In this document: piece by piece, positions 9,914-35,254 of the stretch | Numbering within the stretch: the first letter of the stretch is position 1 | Layout: every line of letters starts with the position of its first letter | Origin: Desulfuromonadaceae bacterium | Lineage (GTDB): Bacteria > Desulfobacterota > Desulfuromonadia > Geobacterales > Pseudopelobacteraceae | DNA: 64,000 nt | Assembly: GCA_028712075.1 (NCBI GenBank) | Contig: JAQTQX010000020.1 | Location: 1-64,000 of the forward strand | Reading direction: 5' to 3' | The notes under the pieces: model-generated | Told to the model about the DNA's origin: nothing | The model's database searches: none | The model's input: the letters and a program-made list of their open reading frames with translations, nothing else | Translations under genes and position numbers: made by a program

Positions 9914-9989
9914 GCCATTTTAGCTCAGTTGGTAGAGCACATCACTCGTAATGATGAGGTCGTCGGTTCGATTCCGACAAATGGCTCCA
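9914..9989 (+). tRNA. tRNA-Thr (anticodon CGT)
   Basis: A complete cloverleaf can be drawn: acceptor GCCATTT/AAATGGC, D arm, anticodon loop CTCGTAA giving CGT, T arm GTCGG-TTCGATT-CCGAC, and encoded CCA. It decodes ACG. A copy of its 3' 30 nt recurs at 11966, so it appears to be an integration target. Confidence 0.95.
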
Positions 9990-10022
9990 ATAAACAGTCC
10001 GGAGACGTCCGGTGAAGTAATT

Positions 10023-11870: not shown

Positions 11871-11965
11871 ATGTTTGATAGTGGTGCGGAACAAGCCTTG
11901 CTGTTCTCAAGGTGGATCGTTTTATTACTCCAATAGCGGGGTAATCCTCCCAATTGTAGCCTATA

Positions 11966-12000
11966 ATGAGGTCGTCGGTTCGATTCCGACAAATGCTCCA
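11966..12000 (+). repeat. tRNA-Thr 3'-end copy, probable att site
   Basis: 30 nt (11966-11995) are identical to 9954-9983 of tRNA-Thr, covering the end of the anticodon stem through the T arm to the acceptor. CTCCA follows where the tRNA has GCTCCA, a one-base loss. No 5' tRNA half is present, so this is not a gene. It marks the distal end of a 2.0-kb segment inserted at the tRNA, or the junction of two tandem insertions. Confidence 0.75.
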
Positions 12001-12018
12001 AAAATCACTGTAACCTAC

Positions 12019-14084: not shown

Positions 14085-15017
14085 TTATGCCGCGTAGTTC
14101 GTGTTTTTAGGTAAGTTGGTTGGTTTGTAGTCAGCCACCTTTTGCAGCCTTTCCCGGGTGGAGATGTGCACCTTTTCTGAATCGCTGATCTGGCGCGCGC
14201 TGGTGCCGAAGGCCTTCCAGATGCCGTCGAAGGAATCGTGAAGGGTACCGGAAGTGTAGTCCTTGTTCAGTGCGTTTACGGCGCTGACCTTGAACCGCAA
14301 GCCGTGTTCATAGGCACGGTCGATCATCCACCGCAAGGCAAGATCCGACTGCCGGCAATCGGTGTAGCCGCCTCCCACATCAGAGTGCACGCCGGAAAAC
14401 CATATCTGGTTGACGCGGTCCTCCGCATTCCATTTGAGCACCGGGAAGAACTTGCGTTTCTCGTCGATGGCCATGGCGTGATACCCTTTGACAACGCTGG
14501 ATGAAAGGGCCAGATCGTTGAAATCCTCATCGGTGGTGGTTTTCACCGTGTCCCAAACACCGAGCATTTCCACCGGGATATCGAAGAGCCTGCCTTCCTC
14601 TTTTAATTTTTCGGAGCTGATGGAATCACGCCGCAAATAGATCTGCCAGGCCAGATCAACGTCAGCAGCCTTTACCGGCACGCCGCAGCGGGAAATGAGT
14701 CCTGCCAACCGTCGCGCGGCATAGGCGCCTCTGCTGAAGCCGAAGATAAAAACCTTGTTGTCTTCTCTCTGCCAGTCTTTGTCCGCAAAGCGCCGCCACA
14801 AAAAGCGATAGGCACCTAGAATCTGCCGGTCCAATCCCTTGCCGTAGATGCCGCCGGGCAGCGCCTCCCAGTACGCGGTGCCGACCCCCTCTTCATAGTG
14901 GGCAACCTGGTTTTTCGCGGCGCAGGATTCTAATAACTTTGCAACGTTGGTGATGGTAGAGTCAGTGTCATTCCAGGTGCCGTCGCAGCCAATGATTAAA
15001 TTCCGGGTTTGAGCCAT
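14085..15017 (-). CDS. DUF2235 alpha/beta hydrolase (Tle1-like)
   Basis: 310 aa. The DUF2235 start NLIIGCDGTWNDTDS, the nucleophile elbow IFGFSRGAYAARRLAG (G-F-S-R-G, about residue 95) and WFSGVHSDVGGGY (His/Asp region) are visible. This family includes type VI phospholipase effectors of the Tle1 group and uncharacterised relatives. No type VI genes or signal peptide are present. AAGGAGG precedes the ATG. A lipoprotein gene lies 24 bp upstream, the arrangement seen when a periplasmic lipoprotein protects against a Tle1-type lipase. Confidence 0.8.
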   Translation of the reverse strand: MAQTRNLIIGCDGTWNDTDSTITNVAKLLESCAAKNQVAHYEEGVGTAYWEALPGGIYGKGLDRQILGAYRFLWRRFADKDWQREDNKVFIFGFSRGAYAARRLAGLISRCGVPVKAADVDLAWQIYLRRDSISSEKLKEEGRLFDIPVEMLGVWDTVKTTTDEDFNDLALSSSVVKGYHAMAIDEKRKFFPVLKWNAEDRVNQIWFSGVHSDVGGGYTDCRQSDLALRWMIDRAYEHGLRFKVSAVNALNKDYTSGTLHDSFDGIWKAFGTSARQISDSEKVHISTRERLQKVADYKPTNLPKNTNYAA

Positions 15018-16967: not shown

Positions 16968-17049
16968 AATACCTGTTTAGGTGGGGTAGTGCTGTATTAG
17001 TCTTTGATTCTATAGCCTTTTTTATTCTACCGCGAAGCGGTTTAGTTCA

Positions 17050-17184
17050 ACCTCGGTATTCATGGCTGGAAATTCGACCAGGACGGAATATTGTGGATGT
17101 GAGACTGTCGACAAAGTTTACATAATAGAACCCAATTGAAAAGTACCACTTGGTTTGTACTGTAATTTTAGGTTCTTATAAGTT
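17050..17184 (+). promoter_or_regulatory. Conserved upstream block of PEP-CTERM gene 1
   Basis: From about 17055 to the promoter, this block matches the minus strand of 34679-34815 upstream of the other PEP-CTERM gene. Shared strings include CGGTATTCAT, GCTGGAAATTCGACCA, ACTGTCGACAAA and TTTACATAATAGAA. It contains AGTACCACTTGGTTTGTACT, an imperfect inverted repeat (AGTAC/GTACT) suitable as an activator site. Conservation well upstream of the promoter suggests binding by an enhancer-binding protein. Confidence 0.6.
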
Positions 17185-17200
17185 TGGTATAATATTTGCT
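17185..17200 (+). promoter_or_regulatory. Sigma-54 promoter of PEP-CTERM gene 1
   Basis: TGGTATAATATTTGCT has GG and GC separated by exactly ten bases (17186-17187 and 17198-17199), the -24/-12 rule for RpoN. The same position in the duplicated region carries TGGCATAATAGTTGCT, where the differences keep GG and GC. Confidence 0.75.
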
Positions 17201-17257
17201 CTGAAACAAATATCTGATTTTGATTATTGAAAGCAACTGAGTCTTAAGGAGAAAATA

Positions 17258-17929
17258 ATGAAAAAGCAAATGGTAGCATTATTGGCAGGGGCGCTGTTGA
17301 TGATAACGGCAGGGATGGCAAACGCATATACTATTGATTATGCCTCTCAAAATGATGGCTTTAATGGCCTTACAACTACTGTCGCTGGCGCAGTTGTGGA
17401 GACGTTTGATTCCGCAGCTATTTGGACATGGGATGGAGATTATTCGATCCGGAATACTTCGCAAAGTGGTGTGTCTGCGCAACCCTATGGTGTTGGACAG
17501 GTTGATTCTACATACTTCATTTCTGTACCGGATTCGAAGTCATCAGGAACAGCCATTGCAACTCAAACAACAGTAATCCTTGGTGGCTTGTTCGACTATT
17601 TCGGCCTCTGGTGGGGATCAGTTGACACTTACAATTCTATTACGTTCATAAATAATGGTGTCGATAAACTCACTATCACCGGCCAACAGGCAATCAACCC
17701 TTCAACTGCCAATGGCAATCAAACTGCACCTGGAACCAACCTGTATGTAAATTTTTATGATCTTCCGACATTTGATAGCTTCAGGTTCACAAGCACGCAA
17801 TATGCGTTCGAAGTTGACAACATTGCTGTAGCTGCTGCCCCAGTACCCGAGCCCGGCACAATAGCCCTCCTTGGCCTCGGTATGGCTGGACTTGCTCTCT
17901 ATGGCAAGCGTCGTCAGAACAAAGCATAA
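17258..17929 (+). CDS. PEP-CTERM sorting-domain protein 1
   Basis: 223 aa. Signal peptide MKKQMVALLAGALLMITAGM ending ANA. The mature core (about 24-190) is Ser/Thr/Asn/Gly-rich beta-type sequence with few charges (NDGFNGLTTTVAG, TFDSFRFTSTQYAFEVDN), as in exported exopolysaccharide-associated proteins. The C-terminus has the sorting tag PVPEPGTIALLGLGMAGLAL followed by YGKRRQNK. Such proteins are cleaved by exosortase (XrtA/EpsH family), not encoded here. The signal peptide, tag, 5' and 3' flanks match those of the gene at 33932-34603, but the core does not. Confidence 0.9.
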   Translation: MKKQMVALLAGALLMITAGMANAYTIDYASQNDGFNGLTTTVAGAVVETFDSAAIWTWDGDYSIRNTSQSGVSAQPYGVGQVDSTYFISVPDSKSSGTAIATQTTVILGGLFDYFGLWWGSVDTYNSITFINNGVDKLTITGQQAINPSTANGNQTAPGTNLYVNFYDLPTFDSFRFTSTQYAFEVDNIAVAAAPVPEPGTIALLGLGMAGLALYGKRRQNKA

Positions 17930-17954
17930 TCAGTACGGCATACATAGTTTTAAC

Positions 17955-17988
17955 AAAAGGGCGCTGCTTCGGTATCGCCCTTTTCTTT
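17955..17988 (+). terminator. Terminator of PEP-CTERM gene 1
   Basis: AAAAGGGCG-ctgcttcggtat-CGCCCTTTT plus T-rich tail. The loop and following CCCTGTCGGGAAACCTTACA are shared with the terminator of PEP-CTERM gene 2. Confidence 0.85.
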
Positions 17989-18079
17989 TACCCTGTCGGG
18001 AAACCTTACAGTTTGAATTGTTGTTAGAAAGAAAGGATATCCGTCAAGACACCCCTTCTGCTACATTATGCCTCCAGCG

Positions 18080-18776: not shown

Positions 18777-18915
18777 CATGACATCGATCACCGGGTATTT
18801 CTGAAGAGTGGTGAAATACGGTATGCCACTGAGCCATGCGTTACTGAATATAATGAAAAGGGAGAGGCGGATGGTGGAGCTGAAGGGGCGGATCAAGGAG
18901 CCGGAGGTGCAGTAA
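18777..18915 (+). pseudogene. PAS-domain sensor fragment
   Basis: HRVFLKSGEIRYATEPCVTE then YNEKGEA is the end of a PAS/PAC fold. After a frameshift, RRMVELKGRIKEPEVQ ends at TAA (18913-18915), overlapping the next ATG by one base. The second half nearly repeats the end of the next gene (RMVELKGRIKELEG), so this is the tail of a related sensor protein that has lost its body. Confidence 0.5.
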
Positions 18916-20654
18916 TGAATACGGCTATGAAGATGAATAGTGAGGCTGAGACATTCCTGTTTCAAGGCAAGCGACTTCTTGCCGCTATTTGCGGCATCAT
19001 GCTCCTGTTTCTTGCTCTTGCCGCTTCTTCTGCCGAGGCAACTGATGAAACGAAACTGCTCTTTCTCGGCAACAAGAATATAGCTCCGGTAGTCTACCTG
19101 GATAACGGCATCCCGGCAGGCGTTGTCGTCGATATCGTGCGGGCGCTTGCGCCGCATCTGCCGAAACCGGTTGAAATCAAGGCCATGGATTGGCAGGAAG
19201 CGCAGGCTCTGGTGGCTCGGGGGGATGCGGATGCCGTGATCCAGATAAACGCGACCGAAGAGCGCAAGAAAATTTATGATTTTTCCGATACGTTGCTGGA
19301 ATCTCAATTTTCAATCTTTACCTCGACCGGCAGGGTCGGCATATCGGGCATGTCAAGCCTTCGCGGTTTGCGTGTCGGCGTCGAGGCGGGAGGGCTCCCC
19401 CGGCAACTTTTGGAAAAAGAGCCGCTGATTCAATTACACATCATTCCGAATTTTCTCGAAGGATTCAAACTGCTGAATAATGGTACTGTTGACGCTGTTG
19501 TCGTGGATTACCGGGTCGGAGCGTATATCATTGCCGAAAACGGGCTGCGCAACATCAAGGTAACCGGTATGCCCATCACATCCTCCTTCTCAGCTATCGC
19601 GGTAAAAAAAGGAAATACAACGCTGCTTAACGCCATCAACAGCGCTTTGCGAATTATTAAAGATGACGGCGCTTACGACACGGTTCTCAAAAAATGGAAA
19701 CCGAAAGAGGTTGTGTTTCAAACACGGGAGCAGATCAGGCAAAGGAGAGACTTCGTAATCATAGTCGTTTTACTCGCATTGTTCCTGATTGCGGCTGCAT
19801 GGACGCTGACCCTGAGGAGGGAACTGGTGAGAAGAAGGGCCGCCGAAAAGAGGCTTGGGGAAAATGAAGCCCGTTTTCGAGCCCTCTTTGAGGATTCACC
19901 CATTTCCCTTTGGGAAGAAGATTTCTCGCGTGTCAAACAGCAGATCGATGCACTTAAAACCTCCGGAATTTCAGACTTCCGGGCGTATTTCACGGAACAT
20001 CCGGAAGAGGTAGTCCGCTGTGCGCACGCAACGAAGATTGTCGCGGTCAACCGAGCCACACTCAAACTGTTCAAGGGCGATAGCCAGGAACAGCTTCTGG
20101 AGGGGCTTGACACTGTTTTCAGCGAAGAGTCATTTGATATTTTTCGAGAGGAATTGATAACGCTGGCATCCGGCGGCACGCAGTTTGAGAGTGAAGCGAT
20201 CCAGAAAAATATGGCAGGAGAAAAATTCGACACCATCGTACGGCTTTCGCTGGCGCCCGGATATGAACGCAGTTGGGAGAAGGTTTTTGTCTCTGTCAGC
20301 GATATTACCGAGCGCAAGCAAGCCGAGGAAGCGCTGCATGTCAAGGCAGCCGAACTTGAAGAGGAGGTGACCGAGCGCCAGATGGCGCAGGAGAATCTTC
20401 AGGAAAAAGCGCTCCTGCTGGAAGAGGAAATCGAAAAACGTCAAAAAGCGCAGGACGAGCTGGAACAACTTAACGACGAGCTGGAACAGCGGGTGATACA
20501 GCGGACAGCCGAGCTGGAGGCAAGAAACGCGGATCTGCAAAAAATGAATAAGGTCTTTGTCGGCAGGGAGCTGCGGATGGTGGAGCTAAAGGGGCGGATC
20601 AAGGAGTTGGAGGGACGCCACGATGGATTGCTAATGGAGCCTCCGGCATCGTAG
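18915..20654 (+). CDS. SBP_bac_3-PAS transmembrane sensor without output domain
   Basis: 579 aa from the ATG at 18915 (GGAGG seven bases upstream). TM1 or signal region about 21-42; a family-3 solute-binding domain about 46-265 (NKNIAPVVYLDNGIPAGVVV, GDADAVIQINATEERKKIYD, LRVGVEAGG); TM2 about 282-302; a PAS region about 325-470 (ARFRALFEDSPISLWEED, SVSDITERKQAEEAL); then a long coiled coil to about 560. No kinase, cyclase or chemotaxis module follows, so the protein ends where an output domain would be expected. It may signal through a separate partner or be truncated. Confidence 0.75.
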   Translation: MNTAMKMNSEAETFLFQGKRLLAAICGIMLLFLALAASSAEATDETKLLFLGNKNIAPVVYLDNGIPAGVVVDIVRALAPHLPKPVEIKAMDWQEAQALVARGDADAVIQINATEERKKIYDFSDTLLESQFSIFTSTGRVGISGMSSLRGLRVGVEAGGLPRQLLEKEPLIQLHIIPNFLEGFKLLNNGTVDAVVVDYRVGAYIIAENGLRNIKVTGMPITSSFSAIAVKKGNTTLLNAINSALRIIKDDGAYDTVLKKWKPKEVVFQTREQIRQRRDFVIIVVLLALFLIAAAWTLTLRRELVRRRAAEKRLGENEARFRALFEDSPISLWEEDFSRVKQQIDALKTSGISDFRAYFTEHPEEVVRCAHATKIVAVNRATLKLFKGDSQEQLLEGLDTVFSEESFDIFREELITLASGGTQFESEAIQKNMAGEKFDTIVRLSLAPGYERSWEKVFVSVSDITERKQAEEALHVKAAELEEEVTERQMAQENLQEKALLLEEEIEKRQKAQDELEQLNDELEQRVIQRTAELEARNADLQKMNKVFVGRELRMVELKGRIKELEGRHDGLLMEPPAS

Positions 20655-33671: not shown

Positions 33672-33876
33672 GAATTTTCCGGAATGTCTATACGGTGTTT
33701 TCAGTCCGTCAGCTCCGTACCCTCTCTGGTAATCCCCCAGAATTCTCTCCAGATGAGGCTTAAGATTGAAGGGTTGTATCATTGTTCAATCACAATATTG
33801 TCAGAGTCAAGGGGCATGCAATTCGACCACACAAATCGCCAGCGCATATCTGTAAGGTTTCCCGACAGGGCAAAAG

Positions 33877-33907
33877 AAAAGAGCGATACCGAAGTAGCGC
33901 CCTTTTT
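33877..33907 (-). terminator. Terminator of PEP-CTERM gene 2
   Basis: On the minus strand AAAAAGGGCG-ctacttcggtat-CGCTCTTTT. Nearly identical to the terminator at 17955-17988, including the loop. Confidence 0.85.
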
Positions 33908-33931
33908 GTAAAACTATGTGCGCCGTACGGA

Positions 33932-34603
33932 TTATGCTTTGTTCTGACGACGCTTGCCATAGAGAGCAAGTCCAGCCATACCGAGGCCAAGGAGGGCTAT
34001 GGTTCCTGGTTCGGGTACTGGTGCGGTCTCTCCTTGTACAAGAATTGTAAAGCCATCAGACCCACCATGATCTTCTCTCAAAACTTGCAGATAATGGTCA
34101 CCAGCAGACAAAGAACCAATAGCTTGCGAGTACTCATAAGTTCCAACGCCACCTGGAGCCATCCAGCCATTCAGATAGGTTCCATCCAGCCAAACATAAA
34201 GACCGTTATCTACACCAAACTGAGCAGACACATTATTAAGACCAGTTGAGCCAGCATTAAATTTGTATATAATTGCATCTTCAGTATTTATACGCCAACT
34301 AAGAGGTATTGCAACAGGTGCTGTCGACCAATACGAATTCAAGCTTTGAGGACTGCTAAGCCAGCTCCCCAAAACTGAAGATGCTGCTGAAAGGTCTGGA
34401 GCAGGTGACATATTATTATAAGTGGGATCACCTGTAGATATATTTGCACCTGGAAAGTACAAGCTTGTATTATCCAGCATGGTTCCGATTGAGCTATTGT
34501 AATAACCTGAAGTTGAATTATTAATTATAGTGCTAGCACCAGCAACACATGTTGCCATTATTAACATCGCCCCTGCCAGTAATGCTACCATATGCTTTTT
34601 CAT
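33932..34603 (-). CDS. PEP-CTERM sorting-domain protein 2
   Basis: 223 aa, the same length as protein 1. Signal peptide MKKHMVALLAGAMLIMATCV. The core (about 24-190) is Asn/Ser/Gly/Tyr-rich with GVDNGLYVWLDGTYLNGW and LSAGDHYLQVLREDHGGSDG, which looks like a PA14/lectin-type beta sandwich and not the core of protein 1. The tag is PVPEPGTIALLGLGMAGLAL with YGKRRQNKA, identical to protein 1. AAGGAG precedes the ATG. It is probably secreted to the outer surface or exopolysaccharide after exosortase processing. Confidence 0.9.
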   Translation of the reverse strand: MKKHMVALLAGAMLIMATCVAGASTIINNSTSGYYNSSIGTMLDNTSLYFPGANISTGDPTYNNMSPAPDLSAASSVLGSWLSSPQSLNSYWSTAPVAIPLSWRINTEDAIIYKFNAGSTGLNNVSAQFGVDNGLYVWLDGTYLNGWMAPGGVGTYEYSQAIGSLSAGDHYLQVLREDHGGSDGFTILVQGETAPVPEPGTIALLGLGMAGLALYGKRRQNKA

Positions 34604-34662
34604 TTTTTTCTCCTTAAAACCGGTTTATTCCATGAATCATAAAAATTCGATATTGATAACTC

Positions 34663-34678
34663 AGCAACTATTATGCCA
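34663..34678 (-). promoter_or_regulatory. Sigma-54 promoter of PEP-CTERM gene 2
   Basis: Read on the minus strand, TGGCATAATAGTTGCT has GG-N10-GC spacing and is close to the consensus TGGCAC-N5-TTGCW. It aligns with the promoter of PEP-CTERM gene 1. Confidence 0.75.
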
Positions 34679-34815
34679 GACTTATAAGGACCCAATATTA
34701 CGGCATAAACTAAGTGGTACTGTTCAACACAATTCTATTATGTAAATTTTGTCGACAGTCCCATTTCCATAATGTCCCGTCTTGGTCGAATTTCCAGCTA
34801 TGAATACCGGGGTTG
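34679..34815 (-). promoter_or_regulatory. Conserved upstream block of PEP-CTERM gene 2
   Basis: Matches 17055-17184 in order and spacing. On the minus strand it contains CGGTATTCAT, GCTGGAAATTCGACCA, ACTGTCGACAAA, TTTACATAATAGAA and AGTACCACTTAGTTTATGCC. Position-specific differences between the copies leave these strings intact. Confidence 0.6.
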
Positions 34816-34974
34816 GCAATTATCCTCCAAGCAGATTGTTCGCTGAAAATTGGAACGCCGGATTAACTATTGAAAAATGCTTTCGTATGGCGAGGTGGAA
34901 GTTTACTCATGAATTAAAAACCCTGAAGGGTATCGGCAGGGGGTCGCAGGATTGATTTTCTCAAACAAAGGCAG

Positions 34975-35024
34975 GCTACCCTGTGCCTTGCAACCCGTTC
35001 GCCGGGAGGGTAGCAAAATTTTTT
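34975..35024 (+). other. Nested hairpin with T tract, structured RNA candidate
   Basis: GCTACCCT (34975-34982) pairs with AGGGTAGC (35007-35014), enclosing a small CCCG-ttcg-CCGGG-like hairpin, and AAAATTTTTT follows. It may be a terminator or a small RNA end; no gene points into it on the plus strand. The flanking 34816-35051 has no reading frame I trust. Confidence 0.4.
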
Positions 35025-35051
35025 ATTACGGCATTTACTGCGGCACGAATC

Positions 35052-35086
35052 AAAAAAGGGAGCTAGCAACTTTGCTAACTCCCTGA
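35052..35086 (-). terminator. Terminator of the tRNA-Asp/tRNA-Val operon
   Basis: On the minus strand AGGGAGTTAGCAAAG-TTGCTAGCTCCCT then six T, just after tRNA-Val. Confidence 0.85.
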
Positions 35087-35092
35087 TTTTAT

Positions 35093-35168
35093 TGGTGGGC
35101 GAAACAGGGATCGAACCTGTGACATCCAGCTTGTAAGGCTGGCGCTCTCCCAGCTGAGCTATTCGCCC
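35093..35168 (-). tRNA. tRNA-Val (anticodon TAC)
   Basis: Minus-strand cloverleaf: acceptor GGGCGAA/TTCGCCC, anticodon loop CTTACAA giving TAC, T arm ACAGG-TTCGATC-CCTGT, CCA encoded. Confidence 0.95.
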
Positions 35169-35177
35169 GTATTTAAA

Positions 35178-35254
35178 TGGCGGGGTTGACGGGGCTCGAA
35201 CCCGCGACTTCCAGCGTGACAGGCTGGCACTCTAACCAGCTGAGCTACAACCCC
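35178..35254 (-). tRNA. tRNA-Asp (anticodon GTC)
   Basis: Minus-strand cloverleaf: acceptor GGGGTTG/CAACCCC, anticodon loop CTGTCAC giving GTC, T arm GCGGG-TTCGAGC-CCCGT, CCA encoded. Nine bases from tRNA-Val, so both come from one transcript. Confidence 0.95.

Follow-up and report, generated by a model that had tools for sequence, protein, structure and literature searches.

The window, i.e. the whole stretch of 64,000 nucleotides that was analysed, contains two genes for PEP-CTERM proteins, here called A and B, which are located on opposite strands and comprise 223 codons each (Table 1); their positions and lengths were correct in the first-pass annotation. The tag was recognized by PF07589 with 30.2 bits in both proteins (cut-off 20.7) and by TIGR02595 with 25.5 bits in A and 26.3 bits in B (cut-off 16). 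Both N-termini show the basic start and the hydrophobic stretch of a putative signal peptide, and the structure models place helices there at residues 2-20 and 3-16, respectively. Gene A has a 5' block with a PrsR-type box, a predicted sigma-54 promoter, a ribosome site and the start of the signal peptide, and the same content is found in B. In both genes, the box matches the motif exactly and is followed by a spacer, the sigma-54 site and the start codon. For PrsR-regulated PEP-CTERM genes, a 17-nt box with a sigma-54 promoter about 63 nt further on is described in Haft et al. 2006 (PMC1569441).

Table 1. Position, strand and properties of the features of genes A and B in the window.
Feature	Position	Strand	Remarks
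Gene A	17258-17929	+	223 codons; putative signal peptide, Npun_F0296-family core, PEP-CTERM tag
A 5' block	17048-17304	+	Common to B (80%) and gene G000:C49:18246 (82%)
A PrsR-type box (motif 1)	17106-17122	+	Upstream of A; exact motif match
A predicted sigma-54 promoter	17184-17200	+	61 nt past box, 57 nt ahead of ATG
A core, residues 24-190	17327-17827	+	Sequence and profile comparisons
A 3' block	17837-18011	+	Tag codons, stop, terminator, second box; 93% to B
A terminator hairpin	17955-17984	+	Sequence and predicted fold
A second PrsR-type box	17994-18010	+	64 nt past stop; no sigma-54 promoter behind
Gene B	33932-34603	-	223 codons; putative signal peptide, core of unnamed family, PEP-CTERM tag
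B 5' block, common to A	34557-34815	-	Similarity to gene G000:C49:18246 over 34546-34920 (79%)
B upstream PrsR-type box	34741-34757	-	Exact motif match
B predicted sigma-54 promoter	34663-34679	-	61 nt past box, 59 nt ahead of ATG
B core, residues 24-190	34034-34534	-	Sequence and profile comparisons
B 3' block	33850-34024	-	Tag codons, stop, terminator, second box
B second PrsR-type box	33851-33867	-	A/B similarity ends with this box

The host genome (G000; 4,150,415 bases in 53 contigs) contains 19 PEP-CTERM tags, which are spread over 10 contigs. PrsK and PrsR are encoded at G000:C5, with 638.8 bits for TIGR02915 (cut-off 502.6) and 546.4 bits for TIGR02916 (cut-off 300), and a gene for a PEP-CTERM-associated CAAX protease-like protein (TIGR03008) adjoins prsR.

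A similarity break at a tRNA gene near B and a rare neighbour of A place both units in variable ground. Around B, similarity within the genus covers clpX, an HU-like gene and the genes for tRNA-Asp and tRNA-Val. Among the loci of 29 relatives, one of which had no match, it stops at 35010-35104 in 26 of the 28 matching relatives, tRNA-Val ending at 35093, and earlier in the other two. The two tRNA genes (35093-35254) lie behind clpX and the HU-like gene, and B starts about 0.5 kb past tRNA-Val. A PEP-CTERM match within 10 kb of clpX on the same contig was found in none of the 31 other clpX-matching genomes, several of whose contigs end soon after. For the downstream neighbour of A, the matches at E <= 1e-60 are restricted to proteins of part length from two other genomes of the genus. 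The solute-binding-protein gene behind A contains a 49-nt direct repeat (90%; 18859-18907 and 20565-20613), and a gene near A (14085-15017) encodes a protein with a T6SS Tle1-like phospholipase domain (PF09994). Elsewhere in the window, the 3' end (9951-9996) of a tRNA-Thr gene (9914-9989) is repeated in direct order at 11963-12007 (91%), as at an integrated element; the intervening stretch of about 2 kb holds genes for an HU-like protein and an EamA transporter and no integrase gene.

A direct comparison of the two loci with BLASTN revealed two conserved blocks, one at either end. The 5' block is identical at 209 of 260 nt (80%, E 7e-65) and the 3' block at 162 of 175 nt (93%, E 6e-72), and the other hits cover just 9-20 nt each, with E values of 0.2 or worse. 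In steps of 60 nt, identity amounts to 85, 78, 70 and 86% in the 5' part, which extends to about codon 13-16, to 36-50% in the core, and to 91, 91 and 86% in the steps that cover the tag and the rest of the 3' block. The final 29 residues are identical, and 3 of the 21 four-fold sites in the tag differ. Beyond the functional elements, the spacers, the leader and the terminator loop are alike as well. For the core, the local protein score of 32 does not exceed that of shuffled sequences (37 +/- 7; 81% of 500 shuffles reach 32), the local DNA score of 23 is reached by 13% of 300 shuffles (20 +/- 2), and HHalign gave a probability of 0.2% for the alignment of the two core profiles. The first-pass description of closely matching ends around an unrelated core is thus borne out, except that the shared 5' part does not reach codon 24 but stops near codon 16, within the signal peptide.

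As a control, the ends were compared among 88 genes of at least 150 AA from the window and from three other stretches of the host genome, which had been chosen for holding tag genes. Sixteen pairs matched at their 3' ends at E <= 1e-6. Fifteen of them are all the possible pairs of the six PEP-CTERM genes in these stretches, and the sixteenth, 48 nt long, joins two convergent neighbours. Matching 5' ends were found in four pairs, all of them PEP-CTERM genes.

The two cores differ in their family assignments. Core A matches the Npun_F0296 surface-protein domain with 89.7 bits (cut-off 29), and the family scan of B found nothing above the cut-off outside the tag. Homologues of either core are absent from the 38 other genomes of the genus set at E <= 0.001, and outside this set, close homologues are present for both cores, in either case from the respective family. 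Those of core B share 45-78% identity, and several of them, from Paracoccus and its relatives, carry a VPLPA-CTERM tag according to their source names, so that the family of core B is met with more than one tag. The closest locus to core A, from Desulfuromonadales isolate Cfx2-04 (63%; eight of 17 loci were inspected), was considered as a clean swap of this core and rejected, as it is 67% identical to A over 657 nt, through the tag and up to 82 nt past the stop codon. Its 3' block is nearer to other 3' types than to that of A. Both cores are predicted to be carbohydrate-binding-like beta-sandwiches, and a very old relation between A and B is therefore conceivable.

For a broader view, PEP-CTERM genes were collected from a genus set of 39 genomes, the host included, with one genome per species. 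Tags were found in 24 of these at E <= 0.001 (126 matches), and 127 genes were assembled from their loci. Cores were compared by BLASTP and regarded as related at E < 0.01, and 3' ends were compared by BLASTN, where a long 3' pair required an alignment of at least 120 nt, of which 40 or more had to lie past the stop codon, and E < 1e-10. Of the 204 long 3' pairs, which are not independent of each other and for which BLASTP would miss weak core relations, 168 join genes with unrelated cores (39 in the same genome, 129 between genomes) and 36 join genes with related cores (1 and 35, respectively). Within genomes, the cores are thus unrelated in 39 of 40 long 3' pairs. At least one long 3' pair with an unrelated core was found for 48 of the 127 genes, and 11 of the 26 long 5' pairs likewise have unrelated cores. 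Hence, both the host genome and the genus contain additional loci in which these ends enclose other cores.

These ends are not a common property of all PEP-CTERM genes. The 3' blocks fall into distinct types, including different terminators and flanks within the host genome, and a DNA search detected the 3' block of A in 13 of the 39 genomes, its own included, compared to 24 with tags. The edges of the blocks lie close to the codons of the sorting signals. In 164 of 165 alignments with unrelated cores, the left edge of the 3' block falls between 30 nt before and 25 nt after the first tag codon; functional conservation of the tag would by itself account for part of this. The 5' blocks stop 36-73 nt past the ATG in 11 of 12 alignments, and the twelfth is an artefact due to an overlap of flanks; a 5' pair in G052 (100% over 104 nt) was rejected as a case of sharing on account of such an overlap. 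A 73-AA ORF elsewhere in the host genome (G000:C28:91357) consists of a PEP-CTERM tag and terminator without signal peptide or core and is possibly a leftover end. Far upstream of B, the segment 34843-34905 recurs with 87% identity at L015:3450-3512, where another PEP-CTERM gene follows about 0.5 kb downstream.

The converse arrangement, a like core between different ends, was found between two species. The gene at G000:C49:18246 and the one at G047:C23:127316 have cores with 88% protein and 90% DNA identity. Nevertheless, in the 19.9 and 19.5 kb around them, only 659 nt match, and apart from a few nt this stretch coincides with the coding sequence. Similarity is at shuffle level upstream of the box and in the 200 nt that follow the stop codon, and between the box and the ATG a short match is left that covers mainly control elements. 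The signal peptides are 85% and the tags 79% alike. In the host, this gene combines a 5' block of the A/B type with a 3' block that it shares with its tandem neighbour, a gene with an unrelated core; the 5' similarity of the C49 gene to B spans 34546-34920 (79%) and is longer than the block common to A and B. Other comparable stretches of the two genomes, possibly including paralogues, are 70-75% identical over 205-526 nt, and clpX is 81% identical. With 90% in the core against 70-81% in these few stretches, the core looks recently moved, although this is a small comparison. The fibro-slime cores of G000:C40 and G047:C6 (63%) are also joined to different 3' blocks, that of the G047 copy being of the A/B type (87-88%). 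Judged from these sequences, this is a second, older converse case.

The PrsR-type box was searched in the 127 genes with up to 2 mismatches. In sense orientation, it was found upstream of 78 and downstream of 31 genes, in antisense orientation in 10 and 4 cases, and in base-shuffled sequence about 0.8 and 0.3 times, respectively. Thus, 96 genes lack a 3' box at this stringency. More than half of the downstream boxes (18 of 31) lie 56-71 nt past the stop codon. A sigma-54 match with a score of at least 10 follows 58 of the 78 upstream boxes compared to none of the 31 downstream boxes, and at score 9 the numbers are 58 and 2. A function of the 3' box as an enhancer for a following sigma-54 gene is therefore unsupported. 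In the host genome, a box precedes 12 of the 19 tag genes, 10 of which have a sigma-54 site behind it. The available part of Haft et al. 2006 (PMC1569441) makes no mention of a downstream box behind the terminator. A PrsR-type box with a strand orientation at this position is a separate, testable puzzle.

The PEP-CTERM genes analysed here are mosaics with edges at the sorting-signal codons, in which the same ends occur on unrelated cores and one core occurs in different ends. New surface proteins therefore seem to arise by recombination, and it is probable that the genes consist of three parts with separate histories that were recombined at their ends. Recombination at the ends as the source of the mosaics has good support. 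The first part would be a 5' module comprising the PrsR-type box, the sigma-54 promoter, the ribosome site and the start of the signal peptide, the second the exported core, and the third a 3' module comprising the PEP-CTERM sorting tag, the terminator and often a second box. Homologous recombination or gene conversion between end segments may couple resident or incoming cores to these ready-made signals, with the functionally conserved sorting codons as potential meeting points. The simplest agent would be general homologous recombination between similar segments of 80 to 300 nt. A core coupled in this way would fall under the control of PrsK/PrsR and sigma-54 and would be handled by the sorting system.

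The first-pass annotation had suggested a cassette whose exported core is swapped by recombination at conserved ends. Recombination at conserved ends is retained here, but this reading is too strict, since in most cases the 5' module travels separately from the 3' module. According to the DNA search, the 5' block of A occurs at three and its 3' block at eight places in the host genome, its own included. As these blocks also have other partners, they do not form one fixed cassette. A fixed two-ended cassette was consequently rejected as a general description. Within the mosaic view, there is about an even chance that cores were replaced between kept ends, and a smaller one that ends were converted around kept cores. 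The C49/G047 case suggests that cores travel, and the tandem C49 pair together with the excess of 3' over 5' sharing suggests that ends also spread alone. A more far-reaching and tentative idea is a dispersed plug-in system, in which ends with a second PrsR box would be standing sockets and exported cores, some from other species, would be spliced in at the signal-peptide and PEP-CTERM codons, the 3' box having a role in control or exchange. If so, the surface and matrix repertoire would be renewed while regulation and sorting are kept.

Alternatively, only the ends may have moved. The cores would then have stayed in place, and the 3' module, less often the 5' module, would have been copied over resident genes by one-sided gene conversion, which is a kind of concerted evolution. 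The large excess of long 3' pairs over 5' pairs (204 versus 26) is consistent with this, as are the tandem C49 genes, which have 287 nt at 93% in common on the 3' side only. Moreover, the best 3' match of a host gene is in most cases a gene of the same genome with an unrelated core (14 of 19; 4 match a related core in another genome and 1 has no match), and tags cluster by species according to Haft et al. 2006 (PMC1569441). However, such same-genome matches account for just 9 of the 108 genes of the other genomes, 61 of which match an unrelated core in another genome and 35 a related core, and 3 have no match. In addition, A and B are alike at both ends, and the C49 core is found in G047 at an unrelated place with different flanks on both sides, which requires that either the coding sequence was moved or both its ends were converted. 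As a complete account, exchange of the ends alone is possible but doubtful.

Simple divergence, with A and B as whole-gene duplicates whose cores have changed past recognition and whose ends were kept by selection, is very unlikely on the present sequence comparisons. It could explain the equal lengths and the predicted beta-sandwich folds of the carbohydrate-binding kind, and genuine families with related, diverging cores between well-conserved ends were found in G010/G021/G024, in G019/G042 and in G052, which indicates that divergence contributes too. For A and B, it was rejected on the contrast between ends and core: with so few differing four-fold sites, the ends are young, whereas the cores align at shuffle level. 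Furthermore, core A and core B each belong to a family of their own with close members elsewhere, and the C49/G047 case would be left unexplained.

It is no more probable that a dedicated mobile cassette is involved, in which cores or whole units from box to box would be moved by a site-specific enzyme. Both A and B are enclosed by two boxes of like orientation at a distance of about 0.9 kb, similarity stops -2 to +6 nt from the end of the 3' box in 30 of the 62 pairs with unrelated cores that are boxed in both genes, and B lies directly behind tRNA-Val, where the genus-wide similarity stops. This is opposed by the absence of integrase and transposase families among the 35 neighbouring proteins scanned, by the many genes without a 3' box, and by the 5' block of A and B, which begins 58 nt ahead of the box, with that of B and the C49 gene starting further out. 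Least probable of all is a similarity without any exchange, brought about by a shared regulator, sorting enzyme and terminator type, because the spacers, leader and terminator loops match as well as the known functional elements (box, sigma-54 promoter and tag; PMC1569441), function does not demand 93% identity, and other PEP-CTERM genes of the host have different terminators and flanks.

The preferred reading, mosaics recombined at their ends, concerns the PEP-CTERM/exosortase system with PrsK/PrsR described by Haft et al. 2006 (PMC1569441), with which the genes share the tag, the 17-nt box, the predicted sigma-54 promoter, PrsK and PrsR, and probably the signal peptide. There, rapid turnover, many PEP-CTERM genes without orthologues between close species and the clustering of tags by species are reported and interpreted as paralogue expansion with gene duplication and loss; the word "recombination" is absent from that paper. 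In contrast to this account, the DNA analysed here shows mosaics whose ends include the promoter, the terminator and a second downstream box. Among the titles listed for the open-licence PubMed Central literature, none concerned an exchange of PEP-CTERM cores or ends. The occurrence of many unrelated proteins with one tag has so far been put down to duplication and loss. Mosaics edged at the sorting codons offer a concrete route, namely recombination between ready-made ends, and the mosaic view predicts which loci should differ between strains.

Integron gene cassettes also hold different genes between constant ends; they are promoterless and located in one array. The units described here, in contrast, are dispersed and have their own predicted promoters, and no integrase was found among the 35 neighbouring proteins. 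Segmental gene conversion of msp2/p44 surface-protein genes has been described for Anaplasma phagocytophilum (PMC11946796). A variable centre between conserved flanks is common to both systems, as is, on the preferred reading, exchange by recombination. In the msp2/p44 system, a single expression site is supplied from numerous silent copies that belong to one family. However, the genes analysed here are dispersed, their cores come from different families, and, unlike at a single expression site, at least 10 of the 19 host genes have their own box and predicted sigma-54 promoter. Concerted evolution in prokaryotes (PMC6053082) is comparable in that paralogous segments are closer within a genome than between species. 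Here, only the ends behave in this way, and the cores do not.
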